NCBI GenBank assembly: GCA_903875425.1
Contig: CAIQWC010000006.1
Location: forward strand, 1-47,253
Length of the DNA: 47,253 nucleotides
Direction of reading: 5' to 3'
Source of the DNA: an uncultured Actinomycetes bacterium
GTDB lineage: Bacteria > Actinomycetota > Acidimicrobiia > Acidimicrobiales > RAAP-2
In this document: in pieces, positions 1-7,154 of the stretch
How positions within the stretch are numbered: the stretch's first letter is position 1
Layout: every line of letters begins with the position of its first letter
Notes under the pieces: model-generated
Told to the model about the DNA's origin: nothing
Databases searched by the model: none
Seen by the model: the letters and a program-made list of their open reading frames with translations, nothing else
Translations under genes and position numbers: made by a program

Positions 1-758
1 CCCATCACGGAAATTCTGAATCAGTCGTAGCATGCTCGGCCGGAAACCATGGCTTAGGTATTGCCTATGCGTCGCAGTACTTTGATATTCCTGCCACCAT
101 CGTCGTGCCTACGACGGCTTCTGTGGCCAAAGTTGAAAAGCTTCGTAGCTATGCCATTGAGTTGGTCTTGCATGGGGACAACTATGACGAGGCAGAAGGC
201 TTCGCAATGGATCTCGCTACTCAGCGAGGCGCGAGATTTATCTCGCCCTACAACAATGCATGGGTGATCGCTGGACAAGCGACAGCTGCCACAGAAACGA
301 TTGCTCAATTACCTGAGCTTGGAACCTTCATTGTTGCAGTCGGTGGTGGTGGATTACTAAGCGGGAGTGGCCTTGCGCTTCGTGACAGCCAGGCCGTAGC
401 CCTTGGTGTTCAGGTTGAACAGAACGCAGCCTTTGCCAGTTTGCTCCGGGGAGATAGGGTCCCTTTCCTAGAAAGCACCATCGCGGATGGCTGTGCCGGC
501 GGCATTGAGACCGATGCGATCACGCTAGATATCGCGCGTGACCTCGGTCTCGAGATCGCCCTCGTGAGTGAAGAAGAAACTATTGCTGCTCTCGTAGCAA
601 CGTATCGAGAACTCGGCCTCGTTGTGGAAGGTTCAGCAGCAGTTGCTATTGCCCTGGCTATCAAACAAGCACGAAGACTTCGAGAGCCAGTTGCAGTGCT
701 TCTCTGTGGTACGAACATTGACCCGGCGCTCCACGCATCACTTATCGCTTCTTGTTAG
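1..758 (+). CDS. Serine/threonine dehydratase-family PLP enzyme, C-terminal part (5' truncated)
   Basis: The reading frame is open from base 3 to the TAG at 756-758, so about 251 residues are visible and the N-terminus lies outside the window. The motif SAGNHGLG near the left edge is the Asn-containing loop of fold-type II PLP enzymes that act on serine or threonine. The later GGGGLLSG is the glycine loop that binds the PLP phosphate. The Schiff-base lysine should lie just upstream and is not visible. Family members deaminate L-Ser or L-Thr to 2-oxoacids, or racemise or eliminate related hydroxy amino acids. The usual length is 310-330 residues for the short form, and there is no C-terminal ACT domain, which argues against the allosteric biosynthetic IlvA form. 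Its end overlaps the convergent SRAP gene by 4 bases. The exact substrate is not determinable. Confidence 0.85.
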   Translation, partial: HHGNSESVVACSAGNHGLGIAYASQYFDIPATIVVPTTASVAKVEKLRSYAIELVLHGDNYDEAEGFAMDLATQRGARFISPYNNAWVIAGQATAATETIAQLPELGTFIVAVGGGGLLSGSGLALRDSQAVALGVQVEQNAAFASLLRGDRVPFLESTIADGCAGGIETDAITLDIARDLGLEIALVSEEETIAALVATYRELGLVVEGSAAVAIALAIKQARRLREPVAVLLCGTNIDPALHASLIASC

Positions 759-1471
759 AACAGGGTTGTTGGCTCCTCAGGTAACGCAATTGCTTGATCG
801 ATGAGCTCAGGTCCATCGTTCTTCACGTTGCCAACCTTTGGGTCCACGGGATGCGAAACCAAAGTCCCCAATTGGGCTGGGACTAAGAGGTCAGCGATGG
901 CATCTTGTACTTCTTCCTTGTCGTCGAGCCATAGATCAAAACTTGCCTGCTCCAAGATCACCGGCATACGGTGGTGGATGGAGGACATGTCAGCGTTGGC
1001 CTCTGTCGTGATGATGGTGGCTGAGTGGATGGGCGGGCTCTCGGGGTTGGCCGGATCTCGCCAGGTCTCAAAGAGACCGGCAAAAGCCAGCATGGTTTCA
1101 TCGCTCCGACTGAAGTAGTGGGGCTGAGGTTTTACTCTCGATCGGTCCCACTCGTAGAAACCATCGACAGGCACGATGAGGCGGTGCGACCTGTACGCAC
1201 CTCTAAATGAGGGCTTGGTGGCTACCGTCTCAGCGCGAGCATTAAAGGTCTTAGATCCAAAGGAAAGATCGTTCGCCCAGGCGGGGATGAGGCCCCAACG
1301 GTATCGATCAAGCACGCGGCCGTGCTCACCACTTGAGATCCCATTAATGCGGCGTGTAGGGCCAAGATTCCAACTGGGCTGTCCTATTGGGTCAACGTCG
1401 TGAGCCAGAGCTGCGTCAAAGAGTGCGGCAACGCGTGCTGGTTGCGTAGCAATGACGAGGCGGCCGCACAT
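755..1471 (-). CDS. SRAP/YedK (HMCES-type) abasic-site processing protein
   Basis: The 238-residue product begins MCGRL; removal of Met exposes the catalytic Cys2, which in this family forms a thiazolidine DNA-protein crosslink with abasic sites in single-stranded DNA. Other family signatures are the NARAET segment, the region ending in DGFYEWDR with the conserved Glu, and IHHRMPVIL with the catalytic His. Length matches the family (about 220-240 residues). It starts 2 bases after the DUF2017 stop codon, so it is probably the third gene of a clpS-DUF2017-SRAP operon. The family name refers to its frequent location near SOS genes, and here the divergent neighbour is the imuA-imuB-dnaE2 cassette. 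It overlaps the PLP enzyme gene tail to tail by 4 bases. Confidence 0.93.
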   Translation of the reverse strand: MCGRLVIATQPARVAALFDAALAHDVDPIGQPSWNLGPTRRINGISSGEHGRVLDRYRWGLIPAWANDLSFGSKTFNARAETVATKPSFRGAYRSHRLIVPVDGFYEWDRSRVKPQPHYFSRSDETMLAFAGLFETWRDPANPESPPIHSATIITTEANADMSSIHHRMPVILEQASFDLWLDDKEEVQDAIADLLVPAQLGTLVSHPVDPKVGNVKNDGPELIDQAIALPEEPTTLF

Positions 1472-2183: not shown

Positions 2184-2242
2184 GGGGTCTTTCTTTAAAA
2201 ATCGTTGAAATTACTGCTCCTAGTGTGCCACCCTTCTTCCCA

Positions 2243-2286
2243 TTGGCGGCTGAAGCACCCCTTGGTTAGCATCGAACATATGTTCG
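2243..2286 (+). promoter_or_regulatory. imuA SOS promoter: -35, -10 and LexA box overlapping the start codon
   Basis: Bases 2273-2286 read CGAACATATGTTCG, a perfect 14-base palindrome that fits the Gram-positive/actinobacterial LexA (Cheo) box CGAAC-N4-GTTCG. It directly follows a TAGCAT -10 element (2267-2272), with a TTGGCG -35-like hexamer at 2243-2248 and an 18-base spacer. The ATG at 2280 lies in the middle of the palindrome, 8 bases from the last base of the -10, which is where transcription should start. The imuA mRNA would therefore be leaderless, and bound LexA would cover the transcription start site. Confidence 0.85.
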
Positions 2287-2981
2287 CTTTATCGCAAGAC
2301 CCTGACCGCTCCTTCCATAGACCCCCCGTACCAACTGCCCTACGAGACCTAGTCCGGCCTGTCGTTGCTGCAGCATCGCGTACCTTGCCGGTGGCTGATT
2401 CGATTACGTCGCTACTCCCACGTGGGGTACTTCGCCGAGGCTCGGTAAGTGTCGTGACTGGCGCTCCAGGCTCAGGAGCGGTGTCCCTCGCACTCGCGTT
2501 GGCTTCTGAAGCTTCAGCCCAAGGACACTGGTGTGGCGTTGTTGGAATCAGCGATCCAGGCGCCACGGCCATGAGCGAAGCCGGTATGGATTTACGTCGT
2601 GTGCTCTTCACTGCGGAACCTTCGAAGCGCTGGCTCGACGTCACTGCTGAGTTACTTGATGGGGTAGAGATTCTCATTGTGCACGTGAGTGCGTCGGTTC
2701 CCTTCTCAGCAGCGCGACGCTTGAGTGCGCGTGCCCGGGAACGTCGTGCTGCGCTCATTATCGTTACTGAAGATCGTCAATACTGGCCGATGCCAGCAGA
2801 CCTTGGTCTGAGCATCCGCTCAAGTGTATGGATGGGTATTGGGCGAGGTGACGGCCATCTCCGTGCACGTCGTCTCGAACTTGAAGTTGCTGCTCGGGGA
2901 GAACATCTCCGGCTGGTTTCTCTTTGGATCCCTGCTCAGAGTGGAGAGACGCTTCTAGCCCATGGCCGTGGTGATGCTTGA
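2280..2981 (+). CDS. imuA: ImuA-type RecA-like mutasome protein
   Basis: The 233-residue protein starts at the ATG embedded in the LexA box; an open frame extends 25 codons upstream, but it would precede the promoter. The stretch LLPRGVLRRGS followed by VVTGAPGSGAVSLALAL is the RecA/SulA-like core of ImuA proteins. The Walker A loop is degenerate (GAPGSGAVS lacks the GK[ST] lysine), as in actinobacterial ImuA', which suggests it does not hydrolyse ATP in the usual way. With ImuB and DnaE2 it forms the damage-induced mutasome that copies past lesions. The TGA overlaps the imuB start region, so the genes are translationally coupled. Identification rests on the core motif, the position before imuB-dnaE2 and the SOS box. 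Confidence 0.88.
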   Translation: MFALSQDPDRSFHRPPVPTALRDLVRPVVAAASRTLPVADSITSLLPRGVLRRGSVSVVTGAPGSGAVSLALALASEASAQGHWCGVVGISDPGATAMSEAGMDLRRVLFTAEPSKRWLDVTAELLDGVEILIVHVSASVPFSAARRLSARARERRAALIIVTEDRQYWPMPADLGLSIRSSVWMGIGRGDGHLRARRLELEVAARGEHLRLVSLWIPAQSGETLLAHGRGDA

Positions 2982-4062
2982 GCGCACCATGGTTCTGTGG
3001 GTACCTGAACTCTCCCAGGGGGGCGGAGACGTCGCTGCGCTGCGTAGCTTTGCAGCCTTACTGGAGATCGTCCTTCTTCGCTGCCCCTTTGTGGAGCCAC
3101 TTCGCCTGGGTCTGATGGCTTTACCAGTTCGATCTGTGGCACGATTTTTTGGAGGAGAGCTCGCGGTATGTGAACTTCTACGCAAAGACCTTGCCCCTTT
3201 ACTTGACGCTAACCAACAGAGTTTGCGTATTGGTATTGCCGATGGTTGCTTCGCAGCGGTACTCGCTGCCCGTAGTGAAGCACTCGTCGCCGTCGGGGAG
3301 ACGACAGAATTCTTGGCAACTCAAGCTATTAGCTGTCTTCATCGCAGCGATATCGCTGAGCTTTGTCTACGCCTTGGAATCACCAGCTTGGGTGCCTTCG
3401 CTGCGCTCGATCGGGATCGGGTGCTTGAACGCTTCGGTCTTGATGCGCTTCACTGTCACCGTGTAGCGAGCGGTGAAGAGGCGATGCTCGAAGGCGTTAG
3501 CGATCCTCAGATCACCATGAGACTCCAACGTCTACAAACTCCCGAGACCGGAACAACACAAGCAGGGTTCTTCGGAGGGACTTCAGCGAGAGATGAACGC
3601 GCCCATCGAATAGCGATACGGCTCCAAGGACACTTTGGTGTCTCGAGTATTCAAGTCGCGCTTACTCAGTCTGGCCGCGATCCGATGGAGCGAGCAGCCT
3701 TTGAGTCGTTTGCAGCAGAAGAACCGACTGTGTTTCGCGATGTCGCACCATGGCCGGCTCGGCTCCCAACACCGTCGCCTATGACAATCTTTGCAAGACC
3801 CCGCGAGGTGTCTGTACTTGATGGATCTGGCGAAGTGCTTGGTATTGATGCTGTTGGCCTCCTCACGGGCACCCCTGTGACCTATAAGGAGGCCAACGCT
3901 TACCGCGATATTGCAGCCTGGGCGGGTCCGTGGCCCCTTATGGGTCCGTGGTGGCGACAACGCCTTCGCCGAAATCGCTTACAGATCCTTACTACGTCAG
4001 GTTGTGCATTCTTGCTAAGCCATGAAGGTCAGAACTGGAAGCTCGTCGGAAGGTACGACTGA
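2962..4062 (+). CDS. imuB: ImuB-like mutasome hub, domain-reduced (Y-family polymerase relative)
   Basis: The 366-residue frame overlaps the end of imuA; the true start may be the ATG at 2974 or 2989 (MVLWVPEL). Recognisable parts are the N-terminal strand LWVPEL, the palm-like segment CPFVEPLRLGL...RFFGGEL, the AD-loop region RIGIADGCFAAVLAA, a helix-hairpin-helix-like segment (LGITSLGAFAALDRDRVLERFG), a probable beta-clamp motif QAGFFGG at residues 200-206, and the ImuB C-terminus from WPARLPTPSP to GPWPLMGPWWR...LVGRYD. Catalytic acidic residues of active Y polymerases are absent, as expected for ImuB. The protein is about 160 residues shorter than mycobacterial ImuB (527 aa). The fingers and the little-finger/PAD segment appear to be missing; see findings. 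The stop overlaps the dnaE2 start (TGATG). Confidence 0.85.
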   Translation: MAVVMLERTMVLWVPELSQGGGDVAALRSFAALLEIVLLRCPFVEPLRLGLMALPVRSVARFFGGELAVCELLRKDLAPLLDANQQSLRIGIADGCFAAVLAARSEALVAVGETTEFLATQAISCLHRSDIAELCLRLGITSLGAFAALDRDRVLERFGLDALHCHRVASGEEAMLEGVSDPQITMRLQRLQTPETGTTQAGFFGGTSARDERAHRIAIRLQGHFGVSSIQVALTQSGRDPMERAAFESFAAEEPTVFRDVAPWPARLPTPSPMTIFARPREVSVLDGSGEVLGIDAVGLLTGTPVTYKEANAYRDIAAWAGPWPLMGPWWRQRLRRNRLQILTTSGCAFLLSHEGQNWKLVGRYD

Positions 4063-7000
4063 TGAGCGACTATGCCGAGCTTCACTGTCACTCAAGTTTT
4101 AGTTTCCTCGATGGTGCATCAGATCCTGAAGAACTCGCCGCGGTAGCCGTCCGACGTGGCCTAAGAGCCTTGGCAATCACGGATCACGGTGGTCTCTATG
4201 GCGCGGTTCGCTTCGCTCAAGCCGCACGAGCCTTTGGCTTACCGAGCATCTTTGGTGCGGAGGTCACGCTTGGTAGCGCTGAGGAGCGCACCGGAGTTCT
4301 CGATCCATCTGGGGATCACCTCGTGGTCTTGGCACGCAATCCTGATGGCTATGCGCAACTCTCAACGGTGCTCGCTGACGCTCACCTTCGGGGTGGCAAG
4401 AAGGGACAGCCGCAGATTTCTATGACAGAGCTAGCGGCGGCTAATCGTGGAGATTGGTGGGTACTCACGGGATGTCGAAAAGGCCCCCTGTCTCGAAGCC
4501 TGAGCGAATATGGACCGAGCGCAGCACGAGATCGACTGCGCGACCTGATCGATCTCTTTGGCGTCGATTCACTCGCTGTTGAAATTTGGGATCACGGTCA
4601 TCCACTCGATAGTGCTCGCAATGACGCATTGGCCTTGCTCGCAGCGTCAGCTGGAGTAGCGCTAGTGGCCACCAATAACGTTCACTACGCGACAACTCAT
4701 GACTTCTACCTTGCCCAAAGTTTCGCGGCACTGCGTGCTCGACGTTCTCTTGAAGAGATGGAAGGGTGGCTTCCTCCAGCCCCCACGGCACTGCTTCGTT
4801 CTCCCCATGAACAACAACGCCGCATGGCCCGATGGCCAGGCTCCGTAGAGACTGCAGTTGCGATTGGGCTCGATAGCGCCTTTGATCTTCGCCTAGTAGC
4901 TCCTCAACTTCCTCGCTTTCCCTGTCCTCCTGGTCTCGACGAGCAGGGATACCTCCGCCAACTCACTGAAGAGCGAGCAGCCAAACGATATGGAACTCGT
5001 GATGACGAACGAGTACCGGGTGCGTGGCTACAGATAGATCACGAACTAGAGGTTATTGAGGTGATGGGTTTTGCTGGTTACTTCCTCACAGTATGGGACA
5101 TCACCGAGTTCTGCCGTCGTTCCAATATTTACTGTCAGGGTCGAGGCTCTGCTGCAAACTCGGCGGTGTGCTTCTCTTTGGGGATTACTAATGCTGACGC
5201 AGTACGACTCGGTCTGTTCTTTGAGCGTTTCTTATCACCGGCCCGTGATGGACCTCCCGACATTGATATTGATATTGAGTCAGGTCGAAGAGAAGAAGTT
5301 ATCCAGTACGTCTATGAACGCTACGGACGACGTCATGCTGCCCAAGTAGCCAACGTGATTACCTATCGATCACGTTCAGCACTCCGTGATATGGGCCGCG
5401 TCCTTGGCTACAGCGAAGAAGAGGTGACTTCGTGGTCCAAGGCTGCGACTGACCCCGAAACGAGTATCCCTGATTCGGTGGCTCTCCTTGCTCGTCACGT
5501 GCTGAATCGACCGCGCCACCTTGGTATTCACTCAGCGGGCATGGTGATTTGTGATCGCCCTATCGTGGAGGTCTGTCCTGTGGAGTGGGGGAGAACACCG
5601 GGGCGTAGCGTATTGCAATGGGATAAAGATGACTGCGCAGGTATTGGACTCGTTAAGTTCGATTTGCTCGGCCTCGGCATGCTCGAAGCCTTACATCGTA
5701 TGGTTGATCTGATTGGCGAACACCATGGCGTCACACTGGATCTTGGGGAGTTACCCCAAGAAGATGCGGTGTATGACCTGTTGTGCCGTGCCGACACCCT
5801 AGGGGTCTTTCAAGTCGAGAGCCGAGCCCAGATGGGAACCCTGCCTCGCGTTGAGCCGCGCTGTTTCTACGATCTCGTTATTGAAGTTGCCCTCATTCGA
5901 CCCGGCCCTATTCAGGGTGGCTCGGTGCACCCCTACATTCGCCGCCGTCGCGGAGAAGAGCCCGTAACCTACCTTCACCCACGACTTGAACCCATTTTAA
6001 AACGCACCCTTGGCGTCCCACTCTTCCAAGAACAGTTAATGGAGATGGCGGTAGCCATTGCTGGATTCAGCGCTGCGCAAGCCGATGAATTACGCCAAGC
6101 CATGGCGTCAAAACGTTCGGTCGAGCGTATGGCCGCCCTGAAAGAACGGCTCTATGCGGGTATGGCGGGCTACGGAATTAAAGGAGCCGACGCTGATGAG
6201 ATTTATACGACCCTCTCGGCATTCGCCAACTTTGGTTTCCCCGAGTCCCATTCTGTTTCCTTTGCTCACCTTGTCTATTGCTCAGCGTGGATCAAGCAGT
6301 ACTACCCCGCTGCGTTCACCGCGGCACTACTCAACGCTCAGCCCATGGGTTTTTGGTCACCCCAAAGCCTTATCGCCGACGCTCAGCGTCACGGCGTCGT
6401 GATCGCTCGTCCTGACGTGCAGCGCTCACAGGCGCAAGCGCATCTTGAGGGACGTAGTGACAAGCCAGTTCTTCGTTTAGGCCTCTCTTCGGTCAGAGGT
6501 ATTAGCCGCGACGTAGCTACCAAGATTGCTGAGGGCGCTCCATGGCTCGACCAAGAAGATCTAGTGAGGCGAGCGGGAGTTACACGAGCGAACTTAGAGG
6601 CCTTAAGTATCGCGGGGGCACTCGATGGCTTTGGTGCATCCCGACGCTCCTTGCTCTGGAGTGCAGGAGCTGCCGCCCAAGCCACTCCCGATCGCCTCCC
6701 CGGGGTCGTGATCGGCACCCGTGCCCCTGATCTCATAGCCGCGAGTGCCCCCGAACAAGTAAATGATGACCTCTGGGCATTGGGGATGACCCCAGAGGCA
6801 ACAGCCATTTCCTTACTACGAGAAGAACTAACGCAGCTCGGTGTTGTGACGGCGGCTTCCCTGCCTAACACTGCGACGGGCAAGGTTCGTGTTGCGGGAG
6901 CGGTGACCCACCGCCAGCACCCCGAAACAGCAAAGGGTGCTGTATTTATTAACTTGGAAGACGAGACCGGCCACGTCAACGTGATCTTCTCGAAAGGGGC

Positions 7001-7154
7001 GTGGCAGCGTTGGAAGCCGGTGGCCAGGCACAACCCCCTCTTGCTCGTGCATGGTCGTCTAGAGCGAGCGCAAGGTGCGATCACCGTAGTGGCTGAACGG
7101 GTGGAATCGCTAGGCCAAGCGTGTGTCGTACCTAGCTCTCGCGACTTTCGCTAA
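4062..7154 (+). CDS. dnaE2: Error-prone DNA polymerase III alpha subunit DnaE2
   Basis: The 1030-residue C-family polymerase starts MSDYAELHCHSSFSF, the PHP domain signature. The palm carries PDIDIDIE with Asp400, Asp402 and Asp404, and a third catalytic region follows. The tail contains an OB-fold segment (KVRVAGAVTHRQ...GAVFINLEDETG), typical of the shorter DnaE2 rather than replicative DnaE1 (about 1150-1200 aa). It is the catalytic subunit for SOS mutagenesis with ImuA and ImuB. The start codon overlaps the imuB stop (TGATG), and no separate promoter is seen, so control is by the upstream LexA box. Confidence 0.96.
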   Translation: MSDYAELHCHSSFSFLDGASDPEELAAVAVRRGLRALAITDHGGLYGAVRFAQAARAFGLPSIFGAEVTLGSAEERTGVLDPSGDHLVVLARNPDGYAQLSTVLADAHLRGGKKGQPQISMTELAAANRGDWWVLTGCRKGPLSRSLSEYGPSAARDRLRDLIDLFGVDSLAVEIWDHGHPLDSARNDALALLAASAGVALVATNNVHYATTHDFYLAQSFAALRARRSLEEMEGWLPPAPTALLRSPHEQQRRMARWPGSVETAVAIGLDSAFDLRLVAPQLPRFPCPPGLDEQGYLRQLTEERAAKRYGTRDDERVPGAWLQIDHELEVIEVMGFAGYFLTVWDITEFCRRSNIYCQGRGSAANSAVCFSLGITNADAVRLGLFFERFLSPARDGPPDIDIDIESGRREEVIQYVYERYGRRHAAQVANVITYRSRSALRDMGRVLGYSEEEVTSWSKAATDPETSIPDSVALLARHVLNRPRHLGIHSAGMVICDRPIVEVCPVEWGRTPGRSVLQWDKDDCAGIGLVKFDLLGLGMLEALHRMVDLIGEHHGVTLDLGELPQEDAVYDLLCRADTLGVFQVESRAQMGTLPRVEPRCFYDLVIEVALIRPGPIQGGSVHPYIRRRRGEEPVTYLHPRLEPILKRTLGVPLFQEQLMEMAVAIAGFSAAQADELRQAMASKRSVERMAALKERLYAGMAGYGIKGADADEIYTTLSAFANFGFPESHSVSFAHLVYCSAWIKQYYPAAFTAALLNAQPMGFWSPQSLIADAQRHGVVIARPDVQRSQAQAHLEGRSDKPVLRLGLSSVRGISRDVATKIAEGAPWLDQEDLVRRAGVTRANLEALSIAGALDGFGASRRSLLWSAGAAAQATPDRLPGVVIGTRAPDLIAASAPEQVNDDLWALGMTPEATAISLLREELTQLGVVTAASLPNTATGKVRVAGAVTHRQHPETAKGAVFINLEDETGHVNVIFSKGAWQRWKPVARHNPLLLVHGRLERAQGAITVVAERVESLGQACVVPSSRDFR

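Follow-up and report, generated by a model that had tools for sequence, protein, structure and literature searches.

In mycobacteria, DnaE2-dependent damage-induced mutagenesis needs ImuB, and the imuA'-imuB-dnaE2 cassette has been implicated in drug resistance, according to excerpts of the published work, which is the form in which the literature is cited here. Mycobacterial ImuB, as in Mycobacterium smegmatis, is a putative dead homolog of the Y-family polymerases with a beta-clamp motif, a RecA-NT motif and an ImuB-C domain, and the first two of these are required for mutasome function and ImuA' binding (PMC10421592, PMC11791113). In the excerpts of a polymerase survey from 2026, ImuBs of both groups are described as often carrying deletions, the most reduced of them still retaining ImuB-C, the little finger (LF) and the thumb; DnaE2 is contacted in models by the ImuB thumb and ImuB-C; and complexes of bacterial Y-family members are said to have no experimental structure available (PMC12926913). 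Systems with a standalone ImuB-C, in which body and ImuB-C are separate proteins, show that the ImuB tail is able to function separately from the polymerase body (PMC6511836, in excerpt).

Here we describe an ImuB ortholog that lacks both the fingers and the LF, a form that we call minimal, from a stretch of 47,253 nucleotides of an uncultured Actinomycetes bacterium (contig CAIQWC010000006.1, assembly GCA_903875425.1), referred to as the window. The cassette and its surroundings comprise the following features:

755-1471, minus strand: SRAP gene (PF02586, E 7.7e-66)
2205-2981, plus strand: imuA' (NCBIfam NF058630, E 1e-38), with the TTG start as listed
2273-2286, plus strand: perfect SOS (LexA) box CGAACATATGTTCG, before or across the imuA' start, from a pattern search
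2962-4062, plus strand: minimal imuB, 366 residues, with an alternative ATG start at 2974
4062-7154, plus strand: dnaE2, 1030 residues (NCBIfam NF004225, 1323.7 bits)

The gene order is imuA'-imuB-dnaE2, and imuB overlaps both neighbours, running over the imuA' end at 2981 and sharing one base of its stop codon (4060-4062) with the ATG of dnaE2. In mycobacteria, in contrast to this single operon, the cassette is split (PMC6511836, in excerpt). The overlap also distinguishes the window from seven loci with full-length ImuB (L087, L097, L099, L104, L110, L112 and L114), in which dnaE2 lies more than 1 kb past imuB and has its own SOS box. Among 33 minimal loci (L053-L085) taken from the best 80 of 462 relatives, imuA' lies upstream of imuB in every case and dnaE2 downstream in 31, the contig ending first in the remaining two. 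The imuB start is more likely ATG 2974 (MLERTM...), since the open frames of several relatives (L054-L056, L058, L059, L064 and L070) begin only at the equivalent codon. For imuA', ATG 2280 within the SOS box is a likely start: the putative promoter at 2243-2286 consists of TTGGCG, 18 bases and TAGCAT, followed by this ATG, a layout that looks leaderless and would make the TTG at 2205 too early. In many relatives, GCTACTCTTA or a similar string stands immediately 5' of the SOS box.

All 35 sequences inspected (the window, L053-L085 and L115) carry CGAACATATGTTCG, or a box closely similar to it, before or at the imuA' start. The pattern CGAACNNNNGTTCG occurs at seven places in the window's genome and a reversed control pattern at six, so that the site count itself means little. 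Its places include one upstream of recA (C5:4459, with the RecA match from 4602) and two upstream of lexA (C12:252216 and C12:252241, with the LexA match from 252369), and it is by these places (recA, lexA and imuA') that we judge the cassette to be part of the SOS regulon. Linkage with imuA' and dnaE2, together with SOS control, are features of the ImuB2 group, and both are present here in the sequence; they are also shared with mycobacterial ImuB. Proteins of the SRAP family act on abasic sites in single-stranded DNA. An SRAP gene divergent from imuA', its start no more than about 110 bases away from the SOS box, is seen in 17 of the 33 minimal loci from the best 80 of 462 relatives (L055, L056, L057, L060, L061, L063-L070, L073, L076, L078 and L081); in the window, SRAP is separated from the cassette by clpS and one further gene.

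Pfam returned no family for the window ImuB at E values up to 1, nor for the minimal relatives L014 and L026 at up to 0.5, and we therefore judged domains by alignment, structure models and lengths. A match to NCBIfam mycolate_SDR (E 0.15) was discarded as due to chance. The alignment was built from 49 ImuB open reading frames of relatives and extended with further loci to 87 rows. All features of the protein lie on the plus strand:

2983-3000, plus strand: first palm strand RTMVLW, residues 8-13 (AlphaFold2 model)
3001-3030, plus strand: site of the absent fingers, residues 14-23 (alignment and models)
3031-3315, plus strand: remaining palm, residues 24-118 (AlphaFold2 model and match to 4ir1_A)
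3316-3474, plus strand: thumb, a helix-hairpin-helix, residues 119-171 (model, structure match and profile; boundary set by eye)
3475-3558, plus strand: site of the absent LF, residues 172-199 (alignment, model and lengths)
3559-3576, plus strand: beta-clamp motif QAGFFG, residues 200-205 (aligned with QxGF[FW]GG of relatives)
3583-3666, plus strand: RecA-NT motif, binding ImuA' by homology, residues 208-235 (spacing relative to the clamp motif, which matches M. smegmatis, and alignment)
3748-4059, plus strand: ImuB-C domain, residues 263-366 (alignment and model)

Full-length ImuBs read RTLVVWCPDWP, then the fingers, RCPGLVVLERDPARDARAFEPVV and, further on, GPSRYFGG, whereas in the window protein and its kin the first strand runs straight into the palm helix, which starts at residue 24. 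In the full-length ImuB of L099 the strand and the palm helix start at residues 6 and 71. The loss thus amounts to about 49-50 residues relative to L099, fewer than the roughly 70 proposed in an initial annotation of the window. At the junction a CPxL-like string remains, VPEL in the window protein and CPGL in many relatives, similar to the one found at the far end of the fingers. In the ImuB of L113 (5989-7410; Pseudonocardiales), a clean deletion of the fingers lies between two CP motifs, and its near relative L107 is full-length. Loss of the fingers seems to be recurrent, and this pair together with the junction string makes recombination between the two CP motifs a possible cause.

At the other end of the polymerase body, RVASGEE is followed by a short stretch and then by the clamp motif, with 29 residues from the end of the thumb (G171) to Q200. 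When the 87 rows were labelled by reading the sequences as minimal (35), fingerless with LF (4; L036, L046, L113 and L141) or full-length (48), the median length of this stretch was 30 residues in minimal and 124 in full-length ImuBs, and its range of 23-64 in the 35 minimal rows did not overlap that of 117-153 in the 52 others. Median total lengths are 364 and 523 residues for minimal and full-length proteins, respectively. A helix at residues 184-192 occupies the former place of the LF and reads RDPxIxRRL in many relatives; one alignment suggests that it may be a remnant of the second LF helix, although it is too short to decide. The clamp motif after the Y-family body, followed by RecA-NT and ImuB-C, is present in the same order and with similar spacing as in M. 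smegmatis, and aligns with full-length ImuBs. In M. smegmatis the clamp motif lies at residue 352 of a protein that has fingers and LF (PMC11791113, in excerpt); position 200 in the window protein agrees with the initial annotation, which had put the mycobacterial motif near 354, and the difference is 152 rather than about 155 residues. The ImuB2 group lacks catalytic carboxylates; read strand by strand, the window protein shows no acidic residue in RTMVLW, the first strand, and E45 as the only one in the next two palm strands (45-48 and 51-55).

An AlphaFold2 model of the window protein, computed with 37 aligned relatives, had a mean pLDDT of 84.3, with ten-residue means of 83 to 98 across residues 1-190 and values below 50 in the clamp tether (196-207) and the stretch ahead of ImuB-C (253-271). 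The model shows a confident palm-thumb core and has neither fingers nor LF. In contrast, L099 modelled in the same way as a full-length control has both, with extra fingers elements at residues 15-68 and an LF of strand-helix-strand-strand-helix-strand at residues 238-340. Compared with the PDB, the short model matched DNA polymerase IV (4ir1_A, Z 14.9, rmsd 2.6, 167 residues aligned, model 5-175 to chain 0-232); its matches are palm-thumb matches that mostly end by residue 193 and hardly cover the tail. The control gave a Z of 18.6 with 6jup_A (227 aligned) and its match to 4r8u_A spanned chain residues 2-338 and thus took in the LF (Z 18.5, with an rmsd of 12.8 across 285 residues because the domains are differently placed). 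A sequence profile of the short clade likewise found DNA polymerase IV across palm and thumb (7yll_A, E 1.1e-5; 4ir1_F, E 0.0059), besides weak rows for polymerase eta and a single unrelated one (E 0.14). The Y-family palm and thumb fold is thus retained, and the absence of fingers and LF proposed in the initial annotation is borne out by alignment, lengths and the model with its full-length control.

Y-family polymerases enclose template and primer with their fingers and LF. We consider it probable that minimal ImuB is an adaptor that links the clamp, ImuA' and DnaE2 and leaves the holding of DNA to DnaE2, in keeping with the initial annotation, which had suggested a pure scaffold that does not hold DNA like a polymerase. 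Upon DNA damage, LexA would be released from its site at 2273, allowing expression of the closely coupled imuA'-imuB-dnaE2 operon; minimal ImuB would then dock onto the sliding clamp through QAGFFG, hold ImuA' through RecA-NT and ImuB-C, and hold DnaE2 through ImuB-C and the thumb, both of which belong to the modelled DnaE2 contacts of the survey and are retained here. These contacts are predicted from published work on other ImuBs. As minimal ImuB has neither fingers nor LF, we infer that it no longer holds DNA, which would be held by DnaE2 (and the clamp) alone, although the helix-hairpin-helix of the thumb could still contact DNA.

DNA contact might instead have been moved rather than given up, with a more basic ImuB-C, the thumb or ImuA' taking over the role of the LF. 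The median net charge of ImuB-C is indeed higher in the minimal group (+3 versus -1 in full-length ImuBs), as is that of the whole protein (+3 versus -4; -3 for the window protein), the thumb is retained, and the helix in the former place of the LF carries basic residues. However, charges differ only slightly between the groups, and for the thumb the median is +1 in both; we regard such a relocation as unlikely.

A second alternative is that the missing domains are supplied in trans by another protein, for which the split systems with standalone ImuB-C (PMC6511836, in excerpt) offer a precedent. DnaE2 gives no sign of compensation: set against 26 others, the 31 members of the minimal clade have no additional stretch and no column with a different fixed residue (at 85% in each group), and the clade's DnaE2 lacks a 5-column stretch near residue 461 of the window DnaE2. 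In the window's genome, PF11799 (LF) and PF00817 (IMS) match one place each, apparently within one and the same Y-family gene located elsewhere in the genome, although a diverged domain could escape such a search, as minimal ImuB does. We hold supply in trans to be very improbable and retain the adaptor as the preferred reading.

In a tree of DnaE2 (57 rows, from loci with at least 800 residues of DnaE2), all 31 carriers of minimal ImuB, and no other rows, fall on the same side of a single branch (SH-aLRT 99). Both this and the ImuB tree are quick trees judged by SH-aLRT support alone, without an inferred root or direction of change. The ImuB tree comprised the 49 aligned frames minus L010, L025 and L028, five of the 33 minimal loci (L053, L057, L076, L079 and L080), 30 other loci from the best 80 of 462 relatives and six of 11 further loci. 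In the tree of the shared ImuB core, the long-branched minimal rows L052 and L080 fall outside the other 33, and the free tree requires five state changes, two for the LF and three for the fingers. A tree in which all 35 minimal rows were held together had the higher likelihood (p-AU 0.805), so that a single origin of the minimal ImuBs is not rejected and is the better fit, short of proof. Cassettes have probably been exchanged to some extent between families, because the window's family also contains full-length ones, placed elsewhere on the DnaE2 tree, and minimal ones are present in other families.

Selection data speak to whether minimal imuB is a decaying remnant on its way to being lost, as might be suggested by the ten of 172 genomes of the window's family without a match, seven of which are less than 90% complete. 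Between the window and a genus mate, imuB gave a dN of 0.25 and a dS of 3.3, close to saturation, by NG86 and a dN of 0.27 and a dS of 1.6 by YN00; for three closer pairs dN and dS were 0.037/0.49, 0.024/0.16 and 0.019/0.094, and the ratio over the four pairs is 0.07-0.2. Mean pairwise identities in minimal versus full-length ImuBs are 0.46 versus 0.50 for the palm, 0.50 versus 0.56 for the thumb, 0.41 versus 0.47 for RecA-NT and 0.48 versus 0.51 for ImuB-C. With low dN/dS, nearly equal conservation of the retained regions, and frame, operon and SOS box intact, minimal imuB is not a relic, and the selection data essentially refute decay, to which we give hardly any credence. The same values qualify the suggestion in the initial annotation that the remnant is what would bind the clamp, ImuA and DnaE2: besides the clamp motif, RecA-NT and ImuB-C, the protein has kept palm and thumb, which are nearly as conserved as in full-length ImuB, so that more survives than the partner-binding segments.

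To assess how widely the short form occurs, we counted as uninterrupted a single match running from model position 17 or earlier to 354 or later of 363, and exceeding the span of the model by no more than 66 residues. A match is present in 162 of the 172 genomes of the window's family, and at least 139 of the 172, and at least one genome in at least 18 of 21 genera, carry the uninterrupted short form among the matches listed. In the remaining genera of the family, the members examined have full-length ImuB (g8, G008 and G027; g14, G014) or a fingerless ImuB with LF (g17, G017). An evenly drawn sample of the order and a sample of the phylum were searched at E <= 1e-70, with the best 6-8 candidates per genome scored. 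In the order sample, 23 of 248 genomes match, 13 of them in the window's family (f1) and the others in f9 (1), f21 (3), f40 (2) and f42 (4), so that the short form occurs in five families of the order, which is Acidimicrobiales judging by named relatives. Among the ten matches outside f1, the stretch from thumb to clamp motif is 25-48 residues long in eight, 48 in G044 (L026) and 26 in G056 (L052). The phylum sample gave 8 matches in 296 genomes, all in f1, the share of the 296 outside the order being unstated. A search of a viral collection yielded 150 stretches that fit the patterns, none of which codes for a relative. A survey of neighbours for the same deletion, as the initial annotation had proposed, thus finds it throughout much of the family and beyond.

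Among the loci L053-L085, which come from the best 80 of 462 relatives, 19 are titled Acidimicrobiaceae or Acidimicrobiales and 12, more broadly, actinobacteria or Actinomycetes; L058 and L070 are titled as other phyla yet lie inside the minimal clade on the DnaE2 tree, and are probably misnamed. Four genomes of the family (G024, G092, G106 and G143) have two full minimal ImuB matches each, which may reflect duplication or a mixture of strains. Fingerless ImuBs that keep the LF also occur in the order outside the window's genus or family (L046 in G047, L141 in G060 and L036 in G017). These and L113 resemble minimal ImuB in the deletion of the fingers past the first strand and differ from it in having the LF. 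An error of assembly or binning, which the initial annotation had named as grounds for refutation and which the MAG label of 32 of the 33 minimal loci (best 80 of 462) might suggest, is refuted by this survey, with the same two gaps recurring in many independent assemblies with the operon intact, and its probability is negligible.

Like the reduced ImuBs of the 2026 survey, minimal ImuB has lost structural elements and kept thumb and ImuB-C; unlike them, as excerpted, it lacks the LF and retains the palm (PMC12926913). It also differs from the standalone ImuB-C systems in carrying palm, thumb and tail in one chain (PMC6511836, in excerpt). We found no description of an ImuB without LF in the open-licence literature searched, part of it in excerpt; a paper on marine Acidimicrobiales (PMC10205998) contains, in its excerpts, a single passing mention of ImuB. 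Within that literature, loss of the fingers appears to fit the general published description, whereas loss of the LF, and of both together, appears undescribed. Given that the window protein and two relatives have no Pfam match, such proteins are easily overlooked in surveys.

A conserved natural ImuB without fingers and LF breaks the published generalization that the LF always stays, which does not serve to define ImuB, fingers and LF being the usual architecture. With it, the shared ImuB core shrinks to the thumb, the clamp motif, RecA-NT and ImuB-C, joined here by the palm, and structural studies and reconstitution gain a smaller protein. It is tempting to go further and propose, tentatively and with slightly less than even confidence, that the mutasome of these Acidimicrobiales has a distinct architecture in which ImuB makes no specific contact with DNA, palm and thumb serving as a DnaE2-docking block on a short clamp tether and DnaE2 alone reading the damaged template. 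If true, natural loss of the LF in one old, conserved clade would show that a mutasome can work without the half of ImuB that grips DNA.
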